In this document: in pieces, positions 61-15,807 of the stretch | How the letters are laid out: each line of letters begins with the position of its first letter | How positions within the stretch are numbered: the first letter of the stretch is position 1 | Assembly (NCBI GenBank): GCA_029260255.1 | Contig: JAJDDR010000595.1 | Span: forward strand, 1-37,816 | Source of the DNA: Phycisphaerae bacterium | GTDB lineage: Bacteria; Planctomycetota; Phycisphaerae; UBA1845 | Length of the DNA: 37,816 nucleotides | Direction of reading: 5' to 3' | Made by a program: the position numbers and the translations under genes | The notes under the pieces: generated by a model | Seen by the model: only the letters and a program-made list of their open reading frames with translations | Database searches by the model: none | What the model was told of the DNA's origin: nothing

Positions 61-3000
61 ATGGCTCGTCCTGCCTTGGATCGGCTTGTGATCGTCGTTG
101 CGGCGGTTCAGCTTCTTTTCCCGGCGGCGGATCGTCCTGCCACAGTCGCGCAGCCGACAACAGGCGCTTTGCGGCGTGACGACTCGACCGACGCGTACAA
201 GAACGAAACAGAGGTTCCCGCCCTCACCGGCGACAACGCCAAGCGGGCGGACGAACTGGACAGAGCCATCGACGAGTTGCGTACGCAGGCTAAGTACGCG
301 GAGGCTATTCCGCTCGCCGAACAAGTGCTGGCAATGCGTCGCCACGCTCAAGGCGAGCAGTGGTGGGAGACGCGTGATGCCCGGCGTTTGGTGGCGACGC
401 TTGAACAGATCGCTTCTCTATCTCCCGAAGCGCAGGCCGAGTTGGCCGAAGCAGACCGGAGTGACGGACCAGTTAGGGACATGTGGTTCGGCCGCCAGTT
501 TGATGCGTTGCTTGATGCCGCCCAACGGCAACGTGCGTGTCGCGAGAGACTGTTGGGGCAGACACATCCCATGGTGGGACGCTGCGCGTCGTACATAGGG
601 ATTGCGTACGAAAACAAGGGTGATTTTGCGCGTGCTGAGCGCCATTTCCGGGAAGCGTTGGACATCCATCGGACGCACCTCGGCACCATCCATCCGGACA
701 CCGCTATTAATCTGGTCAACTTGGGAAGGTTGCTCTCGAAGCGGGGGCACTACGAGGCCGCGGAAGCGAGCATTCGTGAGGGGCTCGAGATTTACCGCAA
801 GCTGCTCGGCGACGAGCATGCCGACGTGGCCACGATTCAGAACATCCTTGGGTATCTGTTGTATCTCAGAGGTGACTATCTCAAGGCGGAATCCCTGTTG
901 CGTGAGACGCTGGCTTTACGCCGAAAGCTGCTGGGCGACCGGAGCGTCGGCGTGGCCACGACACTGAACAACTTGGCGGCGGTGCTCAGCGCCAAGGCCG
1001 ACGACGCTGGGGCAGAAGCACTCCGCCGGGAAGTCCTCGATATCCACCGAGACATTTCCGGACCGGAGGATCCGCGGCTTGCGACGGGTTTGCACAACTT
1101 GTCCGGGACGCTACGTGATCGAGGCAACTACGCCGAAGCCGAATGGGCCGTGCGCGAGGCACTCGCCATTCGGCGTCGCGTGTTGGGTGACAGTCACCCA
1201 TATACGGGGTCGAGTTTGGGCCAACTGGGACACGTGCTGCGGGAGCGCGGGGATTACGGTGCAGCCGAACGCTGCATGCGGAGTTGGCTGGACTCGGCTC
1301 GGCTGACGTTGGGCGACGACCACCCGTATGTTTCGTCGGCGCTGAAGGGTCTAGCTGACGTCCTCCTGGAAGAAGGTGATTACGCCGAAGCGGAGACACA
1401 GCTCCGCAGAGCCCTGACGCTGGATAGGCGGAACTTGGGCGACGAACACCCCGGAGTCGCTACCACCATGAACGACCTGGGCAAGTTGCTCTTGGCACGT
1501 GGTGATCGGGCGGGGGCTACGGCACTTCATCGGCAAGCGTTGCAGATGCGACGCGAGCTTCTGGGCAATGATCACCCCGCTGTCGCGGTCAGCATGCACG
1601 ATTTGGCGAACTCGCTCGAAGGGGGCGACGGGGCGGAGGATTTGGCCGAGGCGGAGCGCATGCACGCCGAGGCGCTGTCGATCCGGCGCCGGACCCGCTC
1701 ACAGGACCTTCACACCAGTTGCACGGCGTACGCCGATCTTCTTTGGCGTCACCGCGACCGGGCGCTCGATGCAATCGCGCTCTACCGTGAAGCGGTTGAG
1801 CATATCGAGGCTCGGCGACACCGGGTGGCCGGCGATGCGTTGGACCGGGCGCGGTATTTCACACGATTGTCCCGCGGTGGCGCTTTCGACAGGATGGTCC
1901 GGGTCCAGATTGCCCCGTGGGCGAAGACGTCGGAGCCAACACAGGACCGCAGCGGGACGGGTCCGGCGGTGGCGTTCAACTATCTGGAACGCGGCCGCGG
2001 GCGAGCCGTGCTGGACCTGATGGACGCTGGAGGTCATGACCTTCTCGCGCTTATTCGCGCCCAGGCAACAGACGATGGGGATCACGCCTTACGCCGCAAG
2101 ACCGAGGAGATTCAGCAGCGCGAGAGCGAAGCGAGAGCGTCGCGCCGTTCAGCCGAGGCGATGATCAGGACCACTAGCAAGGACAACAGCCTCACGGATG
2201 CTCAGCAGACCGAGCACATCCGCGAATTGACCAGACAGCGTGACGAGGCCTGCGACGCGGATCGACAGGCTGCCCGCGATTTGTGGGATCTTGCGCGTGA
2301 CGTATTGGGGTCTAAGGGTCTTCGGCCACTGACGGCAGAGGAAGTGGCCGCCGCGCTTGAGCCCGGTGAGATCCTGCTGGCATACGACGTGGGAACGAGC
2401 GATAGTGTCCTATTGATTGTCGGGCTGCGCGAGCGCGAAGGTATCCCCCGGTCGAGCCGGGAAACCGAGGGACGTAGTGTGCGGTCGAACCGCGCCGGTG
2501 TGCGAGCGTATACGCTCAAGTGGCCTGACAAGACCGATGTGTCGGCCGAGGCGCTGACGGCAACCATCGACCGCGTGTTCGATCGCCTGTCTCGAGAAAC
2601 GGACAAGTCTGACCCAATGACCAGCAAGGTGGCCGGACATGCACCGACCGAGTTGCTGAGCACGCTCCTTCCGACGGAGTTGCACAAAGAAATCGGGGCG
2701 GCGAGGCGCGTCTTTGTCGTTCCTGACGGTCCACTGCATTGGCTGCCGTTTGAGACGCTGATCGTCGATTCAGCCAAGGGCGAGCGGTGGCTTGATGTAG
2801 GTCCGGCCGTTGTCTGCGGGCCGTCGGGGGCGGTGCTCCTGCATCGGCGGCGACAAGGCACGAAACGGCCAAGAGGGCGACCGGCGGCCGAGCGACCGAT
2901 TCTGGTGGCGTTGGGCGACCCTGCGTTCGGCTCTGGGCGGCCGGAGGAGAGCCTGCCACCAAGTGAGCCGGCGTCCAACTCCACCGATACTGCCCTGACG

Positions 3001-3786
3001 CTGGCGATGCGGGACAGCACCCGTGATGCCTTCGGAAAACTCGATCGACTGCCCGGCACGCGCGCGGAAATCGAAGCGATCGCCCAACTCGTGCTGGCCC
3101 AATCCCCGGGCCATCCTGAGGCGGTACGATCGTTCGCCGGTCACGAGGCGACGGTTACGAACCTGTTCAACGCCGTCAAAGGCCCGCGGTTTCTGCACTT
3201 GGCAACGCACGGTCTCGTTGAACGAGGGCGCAAGGTGTATGACAGCGCGCTGGCCATGGCGGCACCCAAGACGGTGACGCCGCAGGATGACGGCTTCTTG
3301 CGATTGGGCGATCTGCTCTCCCGATGGGGCGGCAAGCTGGACGGAACGGAGCTGGTCGTGCTCAGTGCCTGCCGGACGGCTCGGGGACGCATGGAATCCG
3401 GCGAGGGATTCGTCGCGTTGACCTGGGGGTTCCTCTTCGCGGGGGCCGAAAACGTGGTGGCGACGTTGTGGAAGGTCGATGACACCGCGACGGCGCTGCT
3501 GATGACGCGGTTCTATGCAAACTTGTTGGGTTCGGGCGAGGAGGGCAATGGTCAACGGTCATACCAGCCGCCCATGTCCAAGGCCGACGCTCTGTTTGAA
3601 GCAAAGCGGTGGCTGCGGAATCTCGACGCGGATCAAGCAGCTGAGCTTGGCAAGGACCTGTCGCGCGCGACCAAGATGCGCGGGGCCGGTCCAATCAGCG
3701 AGGTCGTGCCCGCGCGGGGTTCCGACCGACCCTACGCGGATCCTTTCTACTGGGGCGCGTTTGTTCTGGTTGGTGATGGTTCCTAG
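61..3786 (+). CDS. Secreted TPR-repeat CHAT-domain protease (caspase-like)
   Basis: N-terminal hydrophobic stretch (MARPALDRLVIVVAAVQLLF) resembles a signal peptide. About 9 kinesin-light-chain-type TPRs of 42 aa (e.g. LGDEHPGVATTMNDLGKLLLARGDRAGATALHRQALQMRREL). C-terminal CHAT signature FLHLATHG...LVVLSACRTARG.....GEGFVALTWGFLFAGAENVVATLWKVDD supplies the His/Cys dyad. The ORF opens at 7, but the ATG at 61 fits the signal peptide better. Confidence 0.9.
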   Translation: MARPALDRLVIVVAAVQLLFPAADRPATVAQPTTGALRRDDSTDAYKNETEVPALTGDNAKRADELDRAIDELRTQAKYAEAIPLAEQVLAMRRHAQGEQWWETRDARRLVATLEQIASLSPEAQAELAEADRSDGPVRDMWFGRQFDALLDAAQRQRACRERLLGQTHPMVGRCASYIGIAYENKGDFARAERHFREALDIHRTHLGTIHPDTAINLVNLGRLLSKRGHYEAAEASIREGLEIYRKLLGDEHADVATIQNILGYLLYLRGDYLKAESLLRETLALRRKLLGDRSVGVATTLNNLAAVLSAKADDAGAEALRREVLDIHRDISGPEDPRLATGLHNLSGTLRDRGNYAEAEWAVREALAIRRRVLGDSHPYTGSSLGQLGHVLRERGDYGAAERCMRSWLDSARLTLGDDHPYVSSALKGLADVLLEEGDYAEAETQLRRALTLDRRNLGDEHPGVATTMNDLGKLLLARGDRAGATALHRQALQMRRELLGNDHPAVAVSMHDLANSLEGGDGAEDLAEAERMHAEALSIRRRTRSQDLHTSCTAYADLLWRHRDRALDAIALYREAVEHIEARRHRVAGDALDRARYFTRLSRGGAFDRMVRVQIAPWAKTSEPTQDRSGTGPAVAFNYLERGRGRAVLDLMDAGGHDLLALIRAQATDDGDHALRRKTEEIQQRESEARASRRSAEAMIRTTSKDNSLTDAQQTEHIRELTRQRDEACDADRQAARDLWDLARDVLGSKGLRPLTAEEVAAALEPGEILLAYDVGTSDSVLLIVGLREREGIPRSSRETEGRSVRSNRAGVRAYTLKWPDKTDVSAEALTATIDRVFDRLSRETDKSDPMTSKVAGHAPTELLSTLLPTELHKEIGAARRVFVVPDGPLHWLPFETLIVDSAKGERWLDVGPAVVCGPSGAVLLHRRRQGTKRPRGRPAAERPILVALGDPAFGSGRPEESLPPSEPASNSTDTALTLAMRDSTRDAFGKLDRLPGTRAEIEAIAQLVLAQSPGHPEAVRSFAGHEATVTNLFNAVKGPRFLHLATHGLVERGRKVYDSALAMAAPKTVTPQDDGFLRLGDLLSRWGGKLDGTELVVLSACRTARGRMESGEGFVALTWGFLFAGAENVVATLWKVDDTATALLMTRFYANLLGSGEEGNGQRSYQPPMSKADALFEAKRWLRNLDADQAAELGKDLSRATKMRGAGPISEVVPARGSDRPYADPFYWGAFVLVGDGS

Positions 3787-3802
3787 TTGCGGATCGCGGA
3801 TC

Positions 3803-3822
3803 GCGGACCGCTGACAGTCCGC
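3803..3822. terminator. Candidate hairpin between convergent genes
   Basis: GCGGAC(3803-3808)-cgctgaca-GTCCGC(3817-3822), a perfect 6-bp stem between the stops of the converging CHAT and anti-sigma-like genes; preceded by tandem GCGGATC. Confidence 0.4.
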
Positions 3823-4583
3823 TATGGAAGATGTTCAAATGTGATCGCGTCGGCCTCAATTCGGGGATCGGCGCGCACTGCCGTCAGGATTTCCTTAAGC
3901 GCTACCGCGTGCGGCTTCGATCCGGCAGTCACAGCAGATTCCGCTTCACGAACGATCCCCACGAAATCCTCTTTGCTGAGCAGGTGCGCACTGTAGAGAA
4001 TCACGAAGGACTCCGTACCGGGTTCGTGGTCCAGCCGCGCGGATTTGGGTAGATTCGGCCCCCGCTTCACGGCGTGGACGTCGCTGCTCAGAGGCGCGAA
4101 TCGTGACTGGCTGTCGAGCATCGCCACAAAGGCCGTGCCCGGTCGGTCGGCGGCAAAGTGAATATACACCGGATCACCACTGCGGAATTGCGTTTCAGAT
4201 TCACCGCGGAGAAGTGTCGGCGCCGATGAGAGCCGCAAGTCGCCAAGAACCAGGACACGTGAAGTTCCAGTTCCCTCATCGGGTGAAAGCACCCCCCGGA
4301 CGAACCAGCCGCCGCCGATCACCAGCACCAGCGACGCGGCCGCCAGGCCGCCGCGCCACCACCACCACCACGATCGTCCGATCTTGAGCGGCACGGACGC
4401 CCCCTGTTGCGCGATCTCACCGTCCACGATGTCGAGCGCGCGGTGCATGTGCCCGAGATCACCGGGCGGTTCGAAGAGGTTCGCCTCCGTCTTCAAGCCC
4501 TCCGGGCGGCGTACCTGCTCGCCCCATCGGCGAAGCAGATCCGCTGCTTCCCGGTCTCCGAAGGTGTCCTCTTCAGCGGGCAT
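3822..4583 (-). CDS. Single-pass membrane protein, anti-sigma-factor-like with DUF4384-like C-terminal domain
   Basis: Starts 4 nt after the sigma-factor stop on the same strand. Cytoplasmic-like N-terminus, then one TM segment (RSWWWWWRGGLAAASLVLVIGGGWFVRG), then a C-terminal domain with the DUF4384-like pattern FRSGDPVYIHFAADRPGTAFVAMLDSQSRFAPL. Confidence 0.6.
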   Translation of the reverse strand: MPAEEDTFGDREAADLLRRWGEQVRRPEGLKTEANLFEPPGDLGHMHRALDIVDGEIAQQGASVPLKIGRSWWWWWRGGLAAASLVLVIGGGWFVRGVLSPDEGTGTSRVLVLGDLRLSSAPTLLRGESETQFRSGDPVYIHFAADRPGTAFVAMLDSQSRFAPLSSDVHAVKRGPNLPKSARLDHEPGTESFVILYSAHLLSKEDFVGIVREAESAVTAGSKPHAVALKEILTAVRADPRIEADAITFEHLP

Positions 4584-4587
4584 CGAA

Positions 4588-5208
4588 TCACTCCTGATGA
4601 CAACCGTCGGGCAGTACCCCTTTCCCGGACAGACAGAGTCGCAGCCGACCGACCGCCTCGACCAGCGCCGAGCGCAACGATGATTCCGGCATGCTCATCA
4701 GCTTCGCAACCTCGCGTTTCGACCGGTTCTCCACGAACACCAGCCAGCACATCGCCCGAGGCGCGGTATCAAGTTCACCCATGCAATCTCGGATCGCCCG
4801 GCTGTGCTCCTGCGAGACCCCGGATCCTGAGGGCGAATCGGACGAGACGGCGTACTCCTGCCAACTGTGCTCGTCGCCGACGAGATCGGTCAAGCAGTCC
4901 GCGGCGATACGCGCGCCTCGTCGCCTCCAGAAGTCGATCGTCTCGTTTCGCGCGCACGAAAACAGGTAGCGGCGCCAGCCGACTTCGTCTGCTTCTGACG
5001 GGCCGCCGCCTTTGCGCACCGATTGATAGACGCGCGTGAACACCTGTTGTGTCAGGTCTTCCGCCTCCCGCGGCGACACGCGCTTCCACATGTATCGCAT
5101 GATCGGCTCCCAGTATGCACGCACGAGCGCATCAAACGCCGATCGATCCCCGGCACGAAGCCGCTGGATCGGTATCGATGAACAAGATGTCGATTTCGCG
5201 TCCACCAT
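4588..5208 (-). CDS. ECF-type RNA polymerase sigma-70 family sigma factor
   Basis: Region 2 (DRSAFDALVRAYWEPIMRYMWKRVSPREAEDLTQQVFTRVYQSV...WRRYLFSCARNETIDFWRRR) and region 4-like HTH (SKREVAKLMSMPESSLRSALVEAVGRLR). The ORF is open to 5391; the ATG at 5208 best fits the family. Confidence 0.88.
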   Translation of the reverse strand: MVDAKSTSCSSIPIQRLRAGDRSAFDALVRAYWEPIMRYMWKRVSPREAEDLTQQVFTRVYQSVRKGGGPSEADEVGWRRYLFSCARNETIDFWRRRGARIAADCLTDLVGDEHSWQEYAVSSDSPSGSGVSQEHSRAIRDCMGELDTAPRAMCWLVFVENRSKREVAKLMSMPESSLRSALVEAVGRLRLCLSGKGVLPDGCHQE

Positions 5209-5220
5209 GCGGGGATTCAA

Positions 5221-5245
5221 AGTCCAGAATACTGAATTCTGGACT
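5221..5245. promoter_or_regulatory. Perfect 10-bp inverted repeat with 5-nt spacer just upstream of the sigma-factor start
   Basis: AGTCCAGAAT(5221-5230)-ACTGA-ATTCTGGACT(5236-5245), read directly. It lies 13 bp upstream of the minus-strand ATG at 5208. Confidence 0.6.
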
Positions 5246-5509
5246 CCGGACTCAGCCCGGCATTGAACCGGACCGGGTGGACGGATGCAAGCGGGGCGCA
5301 TGCGCCCTGCCTTGCCGGCGTGGGGTAATCGTATGCGTTGCGAGCCGACCAGACGCGCTTCGCCGCGACCTCCACACCTTCCAAGACGCACGGCGCGGCC
5401 GAACGCGCAGCATTTTTCTGCGCACCGCGTCAGTTAGTGCGTTGACGGGGAGAGACGCCGGGCGCACCGTTGCGTCCGATCAGAACGCCGCAAGATGGAG
5501 GATTCCACG

Positions 5510-8500
5510 ATGTTGAAAAGAGCAATGGTGTTAAGCGGTCTGGTTTGGACTTTCTTCCCCTCGGTCGCGCCCGCGCAATTGGAATATCGCGTCGACGACG
5601 GCAGAGCGGAAACGAGGGTCGGGATCGATAGCCCGACTGATCCCTCACACGCATTAGCCTGGTTGAATCAATTCGTCGGCGAGGCCAATAAGCCGACGAT
5701 CGCGGCGATCCGCGTCGCGTTCGGGACGATCGCGAACGGGACATCGGTGAGTGTCTATATATGGTCGGACCCAAACCAAGACGGAGATCCTTCGGACGCG
5801 GGAGTGCTCAGGTCGGCCACCGGTGTGGTCGCAAACAGCAATAGCAACGCCTTTAACACCTACCCCATCACACCGCCCCTGGACGTAAGCGTTGGGGCGA
5901 GTTTCTTTGTCGGAGCGATCATCAACGGCTACCCGGGAGGAAATAATCCGGCCCGCCTCGATAAGGACGGGACCGATGATCCGCCAAGCGTTTTCGTCCC
6001 CAGTGAACGCAGCTGGATCGCAGGGGATGCGTCGGCGGGGGGTGCCACGGTTGATCCCAATAATCTCGCCGCGGCCCCGGTCCCCCTGCGGACTGTTCGT
6101 GAGGCATTTGGCGGGACGCCCACCGGCGACGGCAACTTGCTCGTCCGGGCCGTCGAAGCCCCTCAACAAGGGGTGCGGGTCTTCATGGCCCCAGACGGTC
6201 AGCAGGGAAGCGTGCCGCAAACGGGCAATACCTCGATCACGATGGCCGCGGGAACAACCCAGCAGGTATCGGTGTGGGTCGTAGACACTGCGCAGGCCGA
6301 GCAACTCAACGCCCACCAGGTGATCGTCCGTTGGGACGGAGCACCGCAAGCGGGCGCCACGGGGGCCGTCTCATACGTAGACAACAACCCCGGACCCGGC
6401 AACACGGTCTTCGTCGATGAGACCCGGTCGGACTACGTGTTCACCGGCCTGCTCACGAACCCGCCGGTCTACAACGAAACGCCGCCACCTCCCGCCGTCG
6501 ACGCCGGATTTGGATGGATCGCGAGCCTTTTCGACTTCTTCCAGGGGGTCAACCCGCCCGCGACCCCTTCCTATCTGGGCGAGTTCCAGATCGAAGCATC
6601 CGCGGGCGCCGGCGGGCAGTTTGAAGTCTCCTTCGTGCCGTGGGGGGCGCCCCCCGCGGGCGGGACCAACCTCTTCGCACCCGGCGGTGGACTGTACACG
6701 GTCGACGAGTTTCAGAATCTGACGGTCACCGTCACGCCGTCCGCCCCGCCCCCTAATGATGATTGCGTCGACGCTATAGTGGTCGGCAACGGGACCTACG
6801 CCTTCGACACCACCGGCGCGACGCTCGGCGGCCCGTCTCACCCGGCACCGTGCAGTTTCTCCGATGACATCTGGTACGAGTACACCGCCACGTGCACGGG
6901 GACGCTGACAATCGACACCTGCAATCCAACGGGTGATACGGTGCTGGCCATCTACGATCCAGGCGTTCCTTGCACACCGGCGGCCTCCAACTTGATCCTA
7001 TGCAACGATGATTGCGCGACGTGTGGTCCGGGTTTCGGCTCGATGCTGCCTTGCCCGGCACTTGGCAACCCCAACATCAACGTGGCGACGGGGAACACTT
7101 ACCTGGTCCGCGTCGGCAACTTGTCTCCCGGGAGTGGCGCATCTGGGATCTTGTCCTTGACGTGTACACCGTCGTCGGGCTGCGCGGGTCAGCCGACCGG
7201 TACGCCCTGTGGGAACCCGGCGTCGGGTCCGTGTGACCTGCCGGATACCTGCAACGGTGCGGGCGTCTGTGTGGACAACGTTGAGCCGAACGGTACGCCG
7301 TGCAACACCGACCCGTGTACGATTGATGCTTGCGACGGAGCGGGTAGCTGTGTGGTCAGCAGCTTTGCCCCGGCCGGCACGCCGTGCAGCACAGGGAATG
7401 TATGCACGATCAATGATGTGTGCGACGGAGTTGGCATGTGTGTTGGCGGGAGCGTGTTGAGCTGTGACGACTTCGATGCTTGCACCATCGACACATGCAA
7501 TCCGACGATCGGTTGCATCAACGAGGTCATTCCCTGCACCTCGGCATGTGATTGTCTGATTGCAGGAGCGACCGATGCGGTCTGTGCTGCATCCGGCCAG
7601 TGCGACTGCTCGCCGTCCCCCTCGTGTTCCGCGCTGTGCGCGGCCGAGTGGCTGGGCACGCCCAACGGAGACTTCATGGGACCCGCGAACTGGAATCCCA
7701 GTGCGGTCCCGAACGGACGACCGGCGGTTCTGGACAATACGACCGGGTCCGACAGCACGGCCATCCTGAACGCCGGTGACTCGGTGAACGTGTGCGACGT
7801 GATGATTGCGGGCAATCCCGGCGCTTTACAAGTGCTCCAGATCGATGACACCGCCACACTGACCACGACAAACGGCACATCGATCAATGCGCATGGCACA
7901 GTGACGCTTGAGGGCGGCGAATTGGCCGGCAGCGCCAACCTCAACACGTCCGATGCCAAGCTGAGCGGCTGGGGCGAAGTCTCGGGCGAACTCTACAACT
8001 TCGGCGGCACCATCGAAGGTCGACCGGGGGGGCTGCTCTCCATCACCGGGGGCTTCTTCCAGAACATGGGCGTTCTCCGGACAATTGTGACCGGTGCACA
8101 GATCGACGTGACGTCCGGCATGGTGTTGCAGGATGGTCAGATTACGATCAATGCCGGGACGACCATCTCCTTCGGGACTGATCTCAACAACTTCGACCCC
8201 GGAAAGATCACCGTAGAGGGGACATCCGCGACGCCCGGGAATCTGATCGTCCCGAGTCTCACCAACAACGGCGGCACCGTGTCCCCGCTGACGCCTGGTA
8301 TCGACTTGCAGGGAGGGACCATCACACTGGACGCAAGCGGGCTGATCACCAACGCGGCAAACCGGAACATCACCGGATACGGCGCGATTTCCAGACCCGG
8401 GGGTCTCGACTCGGATAACACGTTGGTCAACGAAACGGGCGCCGTGTTCGCGGTGCAGGGGGCGCCGGGGTCTGTCATGAGTGTCTTCGGTCGTTTAGAG

Positions 8501-9976
8501 AACAATGGAATGGTGTTCATCGACACCAGGACGACACTCTTCCTCACCGGTGGGCTCGGCAACAACTGGTGGGTCGGCGGCGGGACGTGCATCGGGTGCC
8601 TGACCGGCGGCGGTGAGGCCGGCACGCTGGACGTGGCGGGGGACCTCACAATGGGCGCCGAGGCCGCCGTGAAGATGCCCGGAGGACGCATCCGAGTGAC
8701 GGGTGACGTAGACATCGCCATTGACGCCCCCCAACGCTTCGACCTGGCCACCACTGAACTTAACCTTGACCGGTTCTTCCCCCTCTTCGGTCCGCAGGAA
8801 CTGGAACTGCTTTCACCGAATGTTGGTGCGGTCGCAGGTGCGCCGTTCGCCATTGGGACTTTGCGCATCGGTCCGAACCAAGCCTGGGTGACGTTGGTCG
8901 ACAATCGCGCTAACGGAAGCGCCGAAGTGGGCGAGGTGCTCTATGTCGACGCGTTGATCTTGGAGCAAAACGTCACGCTCGACACGGGCGGGGCGACTGT
9001 CTACTACCGGACAGTGACACCGGCTGATCCCTGCGATCCCAAGAGCGGCGTTACGGTTATTGGCTGCGAAAACCTGATTCCCATCTCAACGGGTTGTGCC
9101 GATGCTGCCGACTGCGGCGATCTGGACGGAAACGCCGTCACCGACGATGTCTGCACTTGGCACCACTGCGACGCGGGCACGTGCAGCGAGGTGGCCAAGG
9201 CTGTTCCCGCCGACATGGGCGGATCGTTCGGTGCTTGCGACATTGACGGGTTCTGCAACGTTCACGACCGCAACCACGCGCTGAACTGCTTCAGCGGGAC
9301 TAGCGCATGCGATGAGTTGAATGTCGACGCCGGAGGTGCATTCGGCGCATGTCTGCCCGATGGTTTCTGCAACATTCACGACGCCAACCACGCGTTGACG
9401 TGTTTCGCGGGGACGAACCCGTGCGCCTGCGGGCCTTCGCCGGAACAGCCGGCCGAACCGTACATCGTGGGAAGTGCGTCCCTGCGCGTTGCGACCGATG
9501 CGCGGTCCGTGGACCCGGGCGATCTCGTGACTGTGCGGATCCTGCTCGACGCGGACGCCGTCAGCCGGCTACATTGGTCGAAACCTGCTCTGCAGAGTTA
9601 CCAGTTGCATCTGGACGTAAGCGGGGGGCGCCGGGGGTGGCTCGACCTGATCGACATCACTATCGAGGATCGCGGCGACTTCATCTTCGATGATTCGGCC
9701 GGTGTCTTCGACGCGTACAACGTGTGGAGCGGTCAGATGCTCGCCGGACTTGATGCTGGATACGTCGCACTCTTGCCGGATGCCTACCTGGCCACGTTCA
9801 CGTACCGCGTGTCGCCCGACGCTGTCGGCACCTTCGTGATCGACGTCGCGCACGACGAAACCGACGGGAACCAGACGTTCCTGGTGGGCAGGGAACAGAC
9901 TGACAAGATCGAGATCACTGGCACCCATCCGGCAGTGATTACCGTGGGCCGAGATCGTGCCGAGGGAACTCGGTAG
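5510..9976 (+). CDS. Large secreted modular protein with cohesin-like, Cys-rich (CTIDTC), beta-helix-like and dockerin-like segments
   Basis: Signal peptide MLKRAMVLSGLVWTFFPSVAPAQ; RBS GGAGG just upstream. Cys-rich DPCTIDACDGAGSC / DDFDACTIDTCNPTIGC. Repetitive Gly/Thr/Asn region (TLEGGELAGSANLNTSDAKLSGWG...). Duplicated FGACDIDGFCNVHDRNHALNCF / FGACLPDGFCNIHDANHALTCF. C-terminal beta-sandwich resembling cohesin (VDPGDLVTVRILLDAD...YLATFTYRVSPDAVGTFVIDV). Confidence 0.85.
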   Translation: MLKRAMVLSGLVWTFFPSVAPAQLEYRVDDGRAETRVGIDSPTDPSHALAWLNQFVGEANKPTIAAIRVAFGTIANGTSVSVYIWSDPNQDGDPSDAGVLRSATGVVANSNSNAFNTYPITPPLDVSVGASFFVGAIINGYPGGNNPARLDKDGTDDPPSVFVPSERSWIAGDASAGGATVDPNNLAAAPVPLRTVREAFGGTPTGDGNLLVRAVEAPQQGVRVFMAPDGQQGSVPQTGNTSITMAAGTTQQVSVWVVDTAQAEQLNAHQVIVRWDGAPQAGATGAVSYVDNNPGPGNTVFVDETRSDYVFTGLLTNPPVYNETPPPPAVDAGFGWIASLFDFFQGVNPPATPSYLGEFQIEASAGAGGQFEVSFVPWGAPPAGGTNLFAPGGGLYTVDEFQNLTVTVTPSAPPPNDDCVDAIVVGNGTYAFDTTGATLGGPSHPAPCSFSDDIWYEYTATCTGTLTIDTCNPTGDTVLAIYDPGVPCTPAASNLILCNDDCATCGPGFGSMLPCPALGNPNINVATGNTYLVRVGNLSPGSGASGILSLTCTPSSGCAGQPTGTPCGNPASGPCDLPDTCNGAGVCVDNVEPNGTPCNTDPCTIDACDGAGSCVVSSFAPAGTPCSTGNVCTINDVCDGVGMCVGGSVLSCDDFDACTIDTCNPTIGCINEVIPCTSACDCLIAGATDAVCAASGQCDCSPSPSCSALCAAEWLGTPNGDFMGPANWNPSAVPNGRPAVLDNTTGSDSTAILNAGDSVNVCDVMIAGNPGALQVLQIDDTATLTTTNGTSINAHGTVTLEGGELAGSANLNTSDAKLSGWGEVSGELYNFGGTIEGRPGGLLSITGGFFQNMGVLRTIVTGAQIDVTSGMVLQDGQITINAGTTISFGTDLNNFDPGKITVEGTSATPGNLIVPSLTNNGGTVSPLTPGIDLQGGTITLDASGLITNAANRNITGYGAISRPGGLDSDNTLVNETGAVFAVQGAPGSVMSVFGRLENNGMVFIDTRTTLFLTGGLGNNWWVGGGTCIGCLTGGGEAGTLDVAGDLTMGAEAAVKMPGGRIRVTGDVDIAIDAPQRFDLATTELNLDRFFPLFGPQELELLSPNVGAVAGAPFAIGTLRIGPNQAWVTLVDNRANGSAEVGEVLYVDALILEQNVTLDTGGATVYYRTVTPADPCDPKSGVTVIGCENLIPISTGCADAADCGDLDGNAVTDDVCTWHHCDAGTCSEVAKAVPADMGGSFGACDIDGFCNVHDRNHALNCFSGTSACDELNVDAGGAFGACLPDGFCNIHDANHALTCFAGTNPCACGPSPEQPAEPYIVGSASLRVATDARSVDPGDLVTVRILLDADAVSRLHWSKPALQSYQLHLDVSGGRRGWLDLIDITIEDRGDFIFDDSAGVFDAYNVWSGQMLAGLDAGYVALLPDAYLATFTYRVSPDAVGTFVIDVAHDETDGNQTFLVGREQTDKIEITGTHPAVITVGRDRAEGTR

Positions 9977-11160: not shown

Positions 11161-14100
11161 CTACGGCACGCAGACGTCGTTGACCTCGTCGCACGTTTGC
11201 CCCGGGCAAGGATTGGGTGGTCCGCCGGCCGGCAAGACGGTGTCATAAACAGCCGTGCCCGCGCCGAATCCGCCGTCCACACTGTGCACGCCGAAACCGA
11301 TGGTATGCGGGCCAGCGTTGCCCGCGACGGCGTCGATGTTCACGATGTAGTGGATGGCGACGGAGACCTGTCCGCCGTTATCAACCGTGCCTGCGCCGCC
11401 GGTTCCTCCGGTTGTGGCGGCGCCCAGCGTGCCGTTCTGGTTGAGACCGTAATAGGTGCCATCCAGGTAGAACACCGGGTAATCCCAGGATCCGGTGTCC
11501 GAACTCAAGTAGCTGAGCAGATCGAATTCCAGATTCGCTCCGTTCACCGCGATGCTGCCTTGGCTGGCCCAGGTGAATCCGACCGCGCCGGCATCCGTTC
11601 CGACCACGTTCAGATTGGCAGGATAGGTGATGCTTCCGCCGGCGGCCGTATTGCTGGTCCAAGAGGCGGCGCCGTCAAACGTTCCGTTTGCGACACCCGC
11701 GCCAATCACGGGGACGCAAGCACCCGCACTACAGACGTCCGCGCCGTTGCAGAACAGTCCGTCGGTACACGCAGCCACATTGTTCGCGTTCTGACAGACA
11801 CCGCCGACACACGTGTCATCGGTGCAGACGTTCGCGTCGTCGCAGTCCGCATTGATGGTGCAATTGCTGGCGGCCACCACGGTCACGGAAATGTCGTCGA
11901 CCGCGATGTCACCTTGCCAACTGCTGCCTCGGGTTCCGCGGAACCGAAGTTTGACGGACGACGATCCGGCATAGGCCGTCAAGTCGATGCTGGACTGGGT
12001 CCACGTATTGCCCTGATTGCCCGACAGCGTGAATGCATTGGTCCACACGGTACAATCGGTGGAAACCTCGACATCCAAGGTCCCCATCGAGGCTCCGTTC
12101 ATGTTGTACCAGAAGCTGAACGTCGCGCTGGAAGTGCCACTCAGATCCAGGCACGGTCCTTCCAGCAGCGCGGTATCGCCGGCCACTCTCGGCGAGGAAG
12201 TCTCCGTGAAGACATAGAAACCGGCACCGGAGGTATGATCGCCCGTCGGCCCCGTGTTTGAAGACGGAGTCGAGCCGCTGCGTCGCGTCCAGTCGAACAC
12301 GTCCCCGGTCACATTGCTCCACAGTCCGAAACCGACCTCGAAGTTCTCGGCGTATGGGAACACCGAGACACTGCTGGAACAGGCGTTGGTGCATACGCCG
12401 GCGGAGCAAGTATCCACCGTGCAAGCGTTGGCGTCGTCGCAGTCCGCATTGATAGTGCAACCGCCGCCGGAACACGTGTTCGTGACTTCGTCGCAGGTCT
12501 GGCCCGGACACGGGTCGCCGCCCAACTGACAATCGAGCGTTGCGCTGCAGGTTTCCGCGCCATTGCAGAACAACCCGTCATCACAAGCGACGTTGTCCGG
12601 CGTGTTGTCACACGCGTTTGTGGTCTCATTGCACGAATCGGTCGTGCAACCGACGCCGTCGTTGCAGTTCACTGCGGTGCCGGCTTGGCAATCGAGCGTA
12701 GCGCTGCACGTCTCGACGCCGTCACAGAACAAACCGTTGTCGCAGTTGGCATTGTTGGCGACGCTGTCGCAGGTATTCGTGACTTCGTTGCACGAATCGT
12801 CCGTACAGACCACGCCGTCGCTGCAATTCACCGCCGTGCCGGCTTGGCACACGCCGGCGGCGCAGGTCTCGGCCCCGTTGCAGAAGAGACCGTCGTCGCA
12901 ATCCGCGTTGACCACGCAATTGACGCACACGTTGCCGACCTCGTCACAGATCTGCCCGGGACACGGGTCGCCTCCCGCCTGGCAGTCCAGCGTGGCGCTG
13001 CACGTCTCTGCTCCATTGCAGAACAGCCCGTCGTCGCAGACGGCGTTGCTCGGCGTATTGTCGCAGGCATTGGTGGTCTCGTTGCAGGAGTCGGTCGTGC
13101 AACCAATGCCGTCATTGCAGTTCACTGCGGTACCCACTTGGCAGTCGAGCAGTGCGTCGCACGTCTCGGCGCCGTCACAGAACAAGCCGTTGTCGCAGTT
13201 TGCGTTGTTGGCGACGTTGTTGCACGTTCCGGACGGCTCGCTGCAGGAGTCATCCGTACAGGCCACGGCGTCGCTGCAATTCACTGCCGTACCCGCTTGG
13301 CAGTCGAGTGCCGCGTCGCAGGTCTCCGCGCCGTTGCAGGCCAGTCCATCATCGCAGTTGGCGTTGTTGGCGATGTTGTCGCAGGAATTGGTGGCTTCGT
13401 TGCACGAATCGTCCGTGCATGCCACGGCGTCGTTGCAATTGACGGCCGTTCCGACTTGGCAGTCACTCACCGCGTTGCACGTTTCACTGCCGTCGCAGAA
13501 TAAGCCGTTATCGCAGTTGGCGTTGTTGGCGGTGTTGTCGCAGGAATTGGTGACCTCGTTGCAGGCGTCGTCCGTGCAGGCCACGGCGTCGTTGCAGTTG
13601 ACGGCGGTTCCGACCTGGCAGACTCCGAACGCATCGCACGTTTCGGTCCCGTCGCAGAACACGCCGTTGTCACATGCGGCGTCGCTGATGCAAGCACACG
13701 CAAGACAGGGGCCGCCGCAGTCGATACGGTCTTCGCCCTGGTTCAGAATACCGTCGGAACACGTGGCACCGCCGCCAAGGTCGGTGGCGACGATCTCGAC
13801 GTCATCGATATTCCAGCCGCAATACTGCCACGAGCTGTCTGTCGTTCCGATGGTCCATCGAACGAAGACAGTCGCTTGACCATCCGCGACGGCCGAGATG
13901 TCGTAGGTAAACTGTGACCAACTCGTATCGCCCACCTCTGCGGTGTTCTGCCACAGCGTGGTCCAGGTCGTGCCGTTGTTGCTCACGCGCACATAGGCGT
14001 GGTCATACGTCGGCTGTTCGACGCCGAGCCAACGCTGGAACCGCACCGAGGTATTGATGAGATTCGTGCAGTCGATGGCCGTCGTTGTCAGGTGGGTCTC

Positions 14101-15807
14101 GGCGAGGTTGTTGGCGTAGTCGCCAGCAAGGTTGTACCCGACGACGTTGGTGCCGGTCGCGCCCGTTGTGGGATCAGGACCCGCGTGCTGCCCGCCGCCT
14201 CCGGTTGGCGAACCCCATGCCCACTGACCCTGCATCGTCCAGCCCGGATTCGTGTTCATGTTCCAGGAGTAGACGACAGCAGGCCCCGCGACGCATAGAT
14301 TGGTCGCCTCATCACACGATTGCCCCGGACAGGGATCGGAACCAGCCTGACAGCTTGAAGCCACGCAGGTCTCCGCGCCATTGCAAAACAGACCGTCGTC
14401 ACAGTCGAGATTCACAGTGCAGCCGACCGCGCCGGGCACCAGCGTGTTAACGGTTGTCGCCCCGGTGTTGGTCGGGTCCAGCCAATTACTCAGCCGGCTC
14501 GACGACGCCCCGCCGCCGTTCCACGAAACGGCCAACTTACCGTACCAGTCCGACGAGTTGTTCCCGCACGCGGCGCCACCGCCGTGCAACTGGCCGATCA
14601 CGCGGTGGTTCTGGTCGAAGAGCGGCGATCCCGAAGAACCGCCCTCGGTCGTGCCCAGATCCCAGTCGGTGATTCGGACATGTGTGCCGTCACCCGGAAC
14701 GGCGGTCGATGAATAGGACGTCGTGCTGGTGGCTTGATTCTCGAAACTGATGCGCTTCTCATCGACGTTCGGATGGTGGATGGCCACGGCAGAACTCGCG
14801 TTCGCGCCGGAGCGATCCCAGCCGGCGAACGTCACGCCCCACGCCGGAAGGGGGGCTGAGTCCAATTCCACAAGCGTGAAGTCGGATGGCGTGTACGCCG
14901 CCCGGAAGAACGAACCGGTCTGAAAGTCAGCCGACGATCCGTTCGGCGTCCCGCCGCACGTCGTCGTCTCGTAATTCCAGAACACCACCAGTGACGCGGC
15001 ATTGCCGGAAGTGATGGTGCAGTGGTTGGCCGTCAGAAAATACGGCGTCTGATTCTGGGATGTGTTGTTGATCATCGAGCCGGTGCAGAAACGGGCTCCG
15101 CCGGTCGAAATGACGCCCACCGAGGGAATCTCATCCCGCCACAGATCGCCTTCCGGACAAACGACATCTATATTGCACGCGCCGGATTCGATCGGTCCGC
15201 CGCCGCCCCCGCCGAACCGGCGGTACCCGACGTTGATCGAGGTGAGCTCGAGGTGCAACAGATGCGTCACCGCGTCGGGGATGGTAAGTTCCACGACGAT
15301 GTCGTCAGACGGCAACACGGGTGTCCACAGCTCTCCGTGCGTGGCGTTGTCCTCGGCTGTAAACGGCCTGATGGACCGCGTCCCGTCGGCAGAGCGTATC
15401 ACGAGGCTGCCGCCCTCCGGCATGAAATAACGCGTGAATCCCAGATTCAGCGAGACCGCCCCGGGCGAGTTAATTCGAAGCCGCCACACCCAAGTATCCC
15501 CGCGCACCTGCTCCCAATCACCGTCGTTGTCCGGCGTTACGAACACCTGATTGGGAATCGCGAACCGGGGCGCGAGCCCCGCCTCTCGGTCCTCCGTGTC
15601 TTCGATCGCCACGGCGGCCGGATCGACCGGCGGGACGTTGATCACCGGGAGGGTCTGCACCTCCGGGGGCACTGCGCCCGCCTTTCCACCAACCTGGTCC
15701 GCAGCATGAGCGGTTGCGGGCGCGAGGAGCGCCAGGACTCCTACACCTGCGAGGATTGCACGGGCGAATGTTTGGACAAATAACGAGGCACAAGCTGCGT
15801 GTGTCAT
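11161..15807 (-). CDS. Large secreted protease: lysyl-endopeptidase-like trypsin fold, tandem Cys-rich repeats and MAM-like domain
   Basis: N-terminal signal peptide (FARAILAGVGVLALLAPATAHAA). Protease motifs FCTGSMINNT...YFLTANHC, SDFTLVELD, TEGGSSGSPLFDQNHRVIGQLHGG. About 9 Cys-rich units (ANCDNGLFCDGAETCDALLDCQVGTAVNCNDGIGCTTDSCNETTNACDN). MAM-like ENFEVGFGLWSNVTGDVFDWTRRSG.....DIAVDDISV. Confidence 0.88.
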   Translation of the reverse strand: MTHAACASLFVQTFARAILAGVGVLALLAPATAHAADQVGGKAGAVPPEVQTLPVINVPPVDPAAVAIEDTEDREAGLAPRFAIPNQVFVTPDNDGDWEQVRGDTWVWRLRINSPGAVSLNLGFTRYFMPEGGSLVIRSADGTRSIRPFTAEDNATHGELWTPVLPSDDIVVELTIPDAVTHLLHLELTSINVGYRRFGGGGGGPIESGACNIDVVCPEGDLWRDEIPSVGVISTGGARFCTGSMINNTSQNQTPYFLTANHCTITSGNAASLVVFWNYETTTCGGTPNGSSADFQTGSFFRAAYTPSDFTLVELDSAPLPAWGVTFAGWDRSGANASSAVAIHHPNVDEKRISFENQATSTTSYSSTAVPGDGTHVRITDWDLGTTEGGSSGSPLFDQNHRVIGQLHGGGAACGNNSSDWYGKLAVSWNGGGASSSRLSNWLDPTNTGATTVNTLVPGAVGCTVNLDCDDGLFCNGAETCVASSCQAGSDPCPGQSCDEATNLCVAGPAVVYSWNMNTNPGWTMQGQWAWGSPTGGGGQHAGPDPTTGATGTNVVGYNLAGDYANNLAETHLTTTAIDCTNLINTSVRFQRWLGVEQPTYDHAYVRVSNNGTTWTTLWQNTAEVGDTSWSQFTYDISAVADGQATVFVRWTIGTTDSSWQYCGWNIDDVEIVATDLGGGATCSDGILNQGEDRIDCGGPCLACACISDAACDNGVFCDGTETCDAFGVCQVGTAVNCNDAVACTDDACNEVTNSCDNTANNANCDNGLFCDGSETCNAVSDCQVGTAVNCNDAVACTDDSCNEATNSCDNIANNANCDDGLACNGAETCDAALDCQAGTAVNCSDAVACTDDSCSEPSGTCNNVANNANCDNGLFCDGAETCDALLDCQVGTAVNCNDGIGCTTDSCNETTNACDNTPSNAVCDDGLFCNGAETCSATLDCQAGGDPCPGQICDEVGNVCVNCVVNADCDDGLFCNGAETCAAGVCQAGTAVNCSDGVVCTDDSCNEVTNTCDSVANNANCDNGLFCDGVETCSATLDCQAGTAVNCNDGVGCTTDSCNETTNACDNTPDNVACDDGLFCNGAETCSATLDCQLGGDPCPGQTCDEVTNTCSGGGCTINADCDDANACTVDTCSAGVCTNACSSSVSVFPYAENFEVGFGLWSNVTGDVFDWTRRSGSTPSSNTGPTGDHTSGAGFYVFTETSSPRVAGDTALLEGPCLDLSGTSSATFSFWYNMNGASMGTLDVEVSTDCTVWTNAFTLSGNQGNTWTQSSIDLTAYAGSSSVKLRFRGTRGSSWQGDIAVDDISVTVVAASNCTINADCDDANVCTDDTCVGGVCQNANNVAACTDGLFCNGADVCSAGACVPVIGAGVANGTFDGAASWTSNTAAGGSITYPANLNVVGTDAGAVGFTWASQGSIAVNGANLEFDLLSYLSSDTGSWDYPVFYLDGTYYGLNQNGTLGAATTGGTGGAGTVDNGGQVSVAIHYIVNIDAVAGNAGPHTIGFGVHSVDGGFGAGTAVYDTVLPAGGPPNPCPGQTCDEVNDVCVP
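12450..13710 (-). repeat. Coding tandem-repeat array with 159-bp (53-aa) period
   Basis: The motif cgcagttggcgttgttgg and its variants recur at 13514, 13355, 13196 and 13037 (exactly 159 bp apart). They continue at 12743 and ~12584 after one shorter PCPGQ-type unit. Protein units average 53 aa. Confidence 0.85.

Follow-up and report, generated by a model that had tools for sequence, protein, structure and literature searches.

Three genes at positions 61-5245 of a 37,816-nucleotide stretch from a planctomycete-type bacterium (the whole stretch being referred to as the window) appear, on an open reading frame map, to encode a transmembrane sigma/anti-sigma/CHAT module, in which a TPR-CHAT gene is convergent with a two-gene minus-strand operon specifying an ECF sigma factor and, downstream of it, a single-pass membrane protein (Table 1). 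The sequence anatomy supports this reading well, because the trio is conserved, homologues of the membrane protein are identifiable as anti-sigma factors, the predicted topology is coherent, the CHAT protein carries a His/Cys dyad, and the outer half of the membrane protein pairs with CHAT. Both the 35-bp gap separating the convergent genes and the 4-nt spacing within the operon are exact, as the initial annotation had placed them. The gene of the membrane protein thereby adjoins that of its ECF sigma factor, as is expected of a class I anti-sigma factor, and this adjacency is kept in homologues. A search of the window against Rfam returned no match, and PADLOC reported nothing but TPR. Elsewhere in the window, two very large proteins of secreted type are encoded at positions 5495-9976 and 11161-15807, numerous Cys-rich CDDGLFCNG-like repeats being found in the latter, and an HtrA-like serine protease fragment, recognized by reading only, lies at the contig end (36823-37815, minus strand).

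Table 1 Features of the three-gene locus, with positions given for the window.
Feature	Position	Strand	Basis or remark
TPR-CHAT protein, 1241 aa from ATG 61	61-3786	+	Signal-peptide-like N-terminus; start uncertain
TPR array, kinesin-light-chain-like TPR_10/TPR_12 repeats	589-1713	+	Pfam
CHAT domain PF12770	2650-3777	+	Pfam; Foldseek
Catalytic-type His1050 (HLATHG)	3208-3210	+	Invariant in 8 aligned convergent-class CHATs
Catalytic-type Cys1104 (LSACRT)	3370-3372	+	Invariant in 8 aligned convergent-class CHATs
Single-pass membrane protein, anti-sigma candidate, 253 aa	3822-4583	-	ORF; syntenic homologues
Predicted extracytoplasmic part, residues 100-253, beta-rich	3825-4286	-	Model; syntenic ectodomain profile
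Transmembrane helix, residues 81-99	4287-4343	-	One hydrophobic helix; positive charge on N side
Predicted cytosolic part, residues 1-80, three helices	4344-4583	-	Moderate-confidence AlphaFold2 model
ECF sigma factor, 206 aa, ATG at 5208	4588-5208	-	Pfam; TIGR02937
Perfect inverted repeat, 10-bp arms, 5-nt spacer	5221-5245		12 nt upstream of sigma ATG

Conservation of the trio was assessed at several scales. When 100 relatives were searched for the membrane protein, one clear match emerged, in genome G017, the corresponding locus of which holds the same convergent trio (42, 33 and 43% identity). Next to this, the regions around CHAT places of the order were sampled, ECF genes being found by means of a profile built up from the sequences of the window and of G017, and an ECF gene was present within 5 kb in 32 of the 57 CHAT loci. 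Apart from the window itself, nine loci have an ECF gene located 729-1031 bp downstream of the CHAT gene, on the opposite strand and with one gene in between, so that this convergent one-gene-gap slot is occupied in 10 loci (window included) versus 0.29 expected from the ECF density in fetched DNA away from CHAT; the associated Poisson P of about 1e-12 is indicative, since the loci (three of them in one genome) are not fully independent. A sample of 60 loci from the phylum contained one convergent slot (L130; 1 versus 0.095 expected, P 0.09), and the convergent form is therefore mainly a feature of the order to which the window belongs, in which the module is patchy, being missing from most genomes.

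A profile of the middle protein was then used to search whole genomes at any position, whether or not in a CHAT neighbourhood, and gave 13 strong matches, of which 12 adjoin a CHAT gene and one adjoins a CHAT remnant. As 11 of these 13 belong to the query profile and had been picked from CHAT loci, the fresh evidence consists of the two new matches, in G026 (the locus L046, adjoining CHAT) and in G024, together with the lack of strong matches elsewhere. In G024 (contig 132, 5131-7653, locus L160), an ECF gene and a middle gene are followed, on the other strand, by a transposase and the CHAT remnant. The ectodomain profile likewise retrieves every sequence that went into it and, in addition, a single new locus, again L046. 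A contig scan with the CHAT pair, limited to two peptide patterns, retrieved the G017 contig again and no further one, a scan of viral contigs gave no match, and a literature search found no paper on this trio. The conserved synteny of the three genes that is to be expected if they form a module, as initially proposed, is strongly borne out by the slot counts and by the whole-genome matches, and the recurring trio suggests that a protease-like protein may control the sigma factor from outside the membrane. A different arrangement occurs at L043 (contig 497 of the bacterium's own genome), where an ECF gene, a gene for a membrane protein with an Hx3Cx2C motif, a further gene and a CHAT gene are all on one strand, and where the reading frame of CHAT contains three related copies of a 47-nt repeat.

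The sigma factor scores above the cut-offs of Sigma70_r2 (PF04542; 29.5 bits, cut-off 24) and of the sigma70-ECF model TIGR02937 (61.9 bits, cut-off 42.9), which places it among the ECF sigma factors; region 4 (PF08281) reaches 21 bits against a Pfam cut-off of 25.7, and the TIGR02937 match spans this region. The exact pattern of the inverted repeat upstream of its start codon is present nowhere else in the assembly, and the repeat would form a strong hairpin as RNA (fold z-score of -3.75 for positions 5200-5270 of the window); it is possibly an operator or a 5' hairpin.

The TPR-CHAT protein, numbered here from the ATG at position 61, matches PF12770 with 185 bits (cut-off 24) downstream of ten TPR_10 stretches and possesses the His/Cys dyad, which assigns it to the CHAT-domain proteins, in line with its first description as a TPR-CHAT protein with dyad motifs. 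Its true start cannot be fixed because the reading frame runs on without a stop as far as base 1, where the contig begins; when read from ATG 61, the N-terminus is signal-peptide-like, so that, judged by sequence, the protein is predicted to be exported rather than cytoplasmic, as had been proposed. At the sequence level, the CHAT profile also finds TPR-CHAT chains from CRISPR systems (E about 1e-4). The AlphaFold2 model, of modest confidence (mean pLDDT 59, with a higher core), retrieved with Foldseek SAVED-CHAT, the anti-sigma factor DdvA (structures 8rot and 8rw5, E 6e-7 and 2.6e-6), Csx29 and separase. An inserted PDZ domain is found in the CHAT region of L035 (PF17820, 31.1 bits, cut-off 27), and weakly in that of L040.

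The membrane protein probably holds the sigma factor off. The window protein matches no Pfam model, neither DUF4384 nor any zinc-finger model, the only NCBIfam model that it resembles, one for anti-sigma factors, is scored far under the cut-off, and its AlphaFold2 model, again of modest confidence (mean pLDDT 65, three helices predicted N-terminally), gave no Foldseek match below E 0.1. Its designation as "DUF4384-like" in the initial annotation stands for a resemblance only, and an identity with DUF4384 was rejected, since even the two syntenic homologues with sub-threshold PF14326 matches stay well short of the required 27 bits (13.3 for L041, 12.7 for L058). Its anti-sigma identity gains support from zf-HC2 domains in syntenic homologues: above the Pfam cut-off in the convergent-class middle proteins of L027 and L054 and in two co-directional ones, and just under it in that of L130. 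The Hx3Cx2C zinc motif, absent from the window protein, is present in the middle proteins of L027, L033, L045, L054 and L130; this motif is optional in class I anti-sigma factors, which include members with zinc and members without it (PMC7406223). One class B (co-directional, see below) middle protein matches NCBIfam anti-sigma models below their cut-offs, with an E of 1e-10 for one of them.

With regard to topology, the single helix with its positively charged N side predicts the N-in/C-out orientation that the proposed module calls for, and the charge before the helix is more positive than that after it in 13 of 14 middle proteins. With one exception among the 14, the outer half is of near-constant length (approximately 145-158 residues), and the cytosolic part varies widely, the start used for the L058 protein leaving almost none. 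The syntenic ectodomain profile that matches the outer part in the window was built with the window protein included.

The topology of the middle protein corresponds to the predicted compartment of its CHAT partner. In the convergent class, complete CHAT partners start with a signal-peptide-like stretch, as determined by a scripted rule and partly by eye: the rule fired on the CHATs of the window, L027, L033 and L040, and the starts of L045, L041, L010 and L035 were judged by eye because the rule fired on a neighbouring start (L045), on an internal stretch only (L041) or not at all (L010 and L035). Co-directional loci (L020-L023, L026, L028, L034, L036, L048, L050, L052, L056 and L100), referred to as class B, comprise an ECF gene, a gene for a soluble anti-sigma candidate and a CHAT gene without a signal-peptide-like start; here, firings of the rule on internal stretches in L023 and L100 were discounted, and the L022 middle gene was read by eye. 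Leaving out L092 (zinc-motif membrane middle protein, CHAT start missed by the rule), transmembrane middle proteins with exported versus non-exported CHAT number 11 and 0, and soluble ones 0 and 12 (Fisher 7e-7), in a table that rests on our readings, ignores kinship and includes a class B that is essentially one sigma clade.

Natural swaps indicate where the module may be divided. The L045 locus resembles L033 in its sigma factor (48% identity, Z 70) and in the inner half of its membrane protein (50%, Z 51), but not in the outer half (Z 0.4), which instead matches that of L041 (Z 38, as against a sigma Z of -0.2) and likewise that of L035, the sigma factor of which is unmatched. The L045 CHAT groups with those of L041 and L035 on a starred branch of a quick tree, on which the CHAT pairing rests because every CHAT resembles every other. 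From these sequence comparisons, the swap point in L045 is placed near the membrane helix, the inner half staying with the sigma factor and the outer half with the CHAT clade. The L040 sigma factor goes with those of L041 and L035, and its CHAT, in the tree, with those of L027 and L033; since its outer half is clearly matched on neither side (Z 3.2 with L041, 1.8 with L033), L040 shows a change of CHAT and no matched ectodomain. Mantel (mirror-tree) tests of CHAT similarity against ectodomain and sigma similarity were not significant.

Considering this arrangement, the following sequence of events may be envisaged, for which we infer the signal, the CHAT activity, the cut, the binding and release of sigma, and the regulon. 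In the resting state, the short cytosolic portion of the membrane protein would block the ECF sigma factor. The exported CHAT would become active upon a signal from the envelope, possibly sensed through the TPR part, and would make the first cut in the ectodomain of the anti-sigma factor; intramembrane (M50/RseP-type) and cytosolic proteases would then complete its degradation, and the freed sigma factor would transcribe its targets. We regard a first cut by CHAT as the likeliest mechanism in view of the invariant dyad, the fitting topology, the PDZ domain carried by the L035 CHAT and the presence of M50 peptidases in the genome. On balance, we give slightly better than even credence to such a three-gene transmembrane module, in which an exported TPR-CHAT protein cuts the ectodomain of the anti-sigma factor and thereby frees the ECF sigma factor.

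Parts of this proposed design are known from other systems, the closest being DdvA of Myxococcus xanthus (described below) and the Csx29 set of type III-E CRISPR; the structural matches of the CHAT model to both DdvA and Csx29 count in favour of the module. RseA/DegS/RseP and the class I systems are similar in that they involve membrane anti-sigma factors, and Hx3Cx2C occurs in several of the syntenic homologues described here. DegS has a PDZ domain, as does the L035 CHAT by insertion, but the first protease of the RseA pathway is a serine protease, whereas the candidate in the window is of the CHAT/caspase type. In type III-E CRISPR systems, cleavage within the Csx29-Csx30-CASP-sigma set is reported to relieve inhibition (PMC10028731); a TPR-CHAT protein, an inhibitor (here a candidate) and an ECF sigma factor are shared, yet the Csx29 system is RNA-guided, acts in the Cas7-11 complex and is cytosolic, whereas the CHAT of the window is signal-peptide-like at its start and its inhibitor candidate spans the membrane. 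The parallel would at most be one of mechanism, no CRISPR part having come to notice in the course of the other searches. EACC2-caspase loci with an ECF sigma factor and a TPR protein constitute a bioinformatic proposal linking these parts, with another architecture and, in the portion of that work consulted, no transmembrane anti-sigma factor described (PMC8195603).

The first of the alternatives to be weighed is that CHAT is an output of the sigma factor, in that sigma and anti-sigma sense envelope stress on their own and induce the neighbouring exported CHAT, which would act on other targets. Genes neighbouring those of ECF sigma factors are often their targets, and CHAT could be an output because it is convergent and not co-transcribed. 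We nevertheless consider this unlikely, as the matching of topology and the L045 outer half following the CHAT clade suggest contact and not transcription only; no shared promoter motif was established, the window containing no more than 60 bp ahead of the ATG of CHAT.

Somewhat less probable again is regulation by CHAT without cutting, whereby it would bind the ectodomain as a sensor or co-inhibitor, the two proteins corresponding, in split form, to an anti-sigma factor that contains a CHAT domain. The match of the CHAT model to DdvA is consistent with this: DdvA spans the membrane and is the anti-sigma factor of the ECF sigma factor DdvS (PDB titles 8rot and 8rw5; PMC4374960), and its solved structure places a CHAT-like fold, to which the modelled CHAT of the window appears alike, within the anti-sigma factor itself, whereas anti-sigma candidate and CHAT are separate genes in the window. 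In Myxococcus xanthus, DdvS becomes active once DdvA is inactivated, by a signal that is unknown (PMC4374960), and controls a CBASS/type III-B CRISPR island (PMC12288465). Among the sampled CHAT ORFs, no zinc-motif/CHAT fusion was found; L106, with a TM-like CHAT start, was considered as a fusion and rejected, its neighbouring ECF gene being on the other strand and not fused. The invariance of the dyad in the 8 aligned convergent-class proteins argues for catalysis and against a non-cutting role.

It is improbable that the ectodomain serves as an inhibitor or immunity part, the anti-sigma factor restraining a harmful exported protease and reporting its state to sigma; the outer-half/CHAT pairing and the near-constant length of the outer half beside a variable cytosolic part would suit this, and the persistence of the G024 anti-sigma gene beside a CHAT remnant is compatible either way. 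Chance neighbourhood without a functional link is very improbable: relatives are rich in ECF genes, and many CHAT genes, especially across the phylum at large, do not belong to a trio of this kind, but the 10 slots against 0.29 expected strongly disfavour it, as does the adjacency of all 13 strong middle-protein matches to CHAT or its remnant, though 11 had been picked from CHAT loci.

Returning to cleavage by an exported CHAT, we put forward tentatively, with rather less than even confidence, the wider proposal that free exported CHAT proteins act as first-cut proteases for planctomycete-type membrane anti-sigma factors, and that sigma/anti-sigma inner halves are exchanged against ectodomain/CHAT halves at the membrane helix. 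The natural swap lends itself directly to testing the partner recognised by each half. Should the proposal hold, a part-swapping module would let proteases of the caspase family govern gene expression across the inner membrane of bacteria independently of CRISPR.
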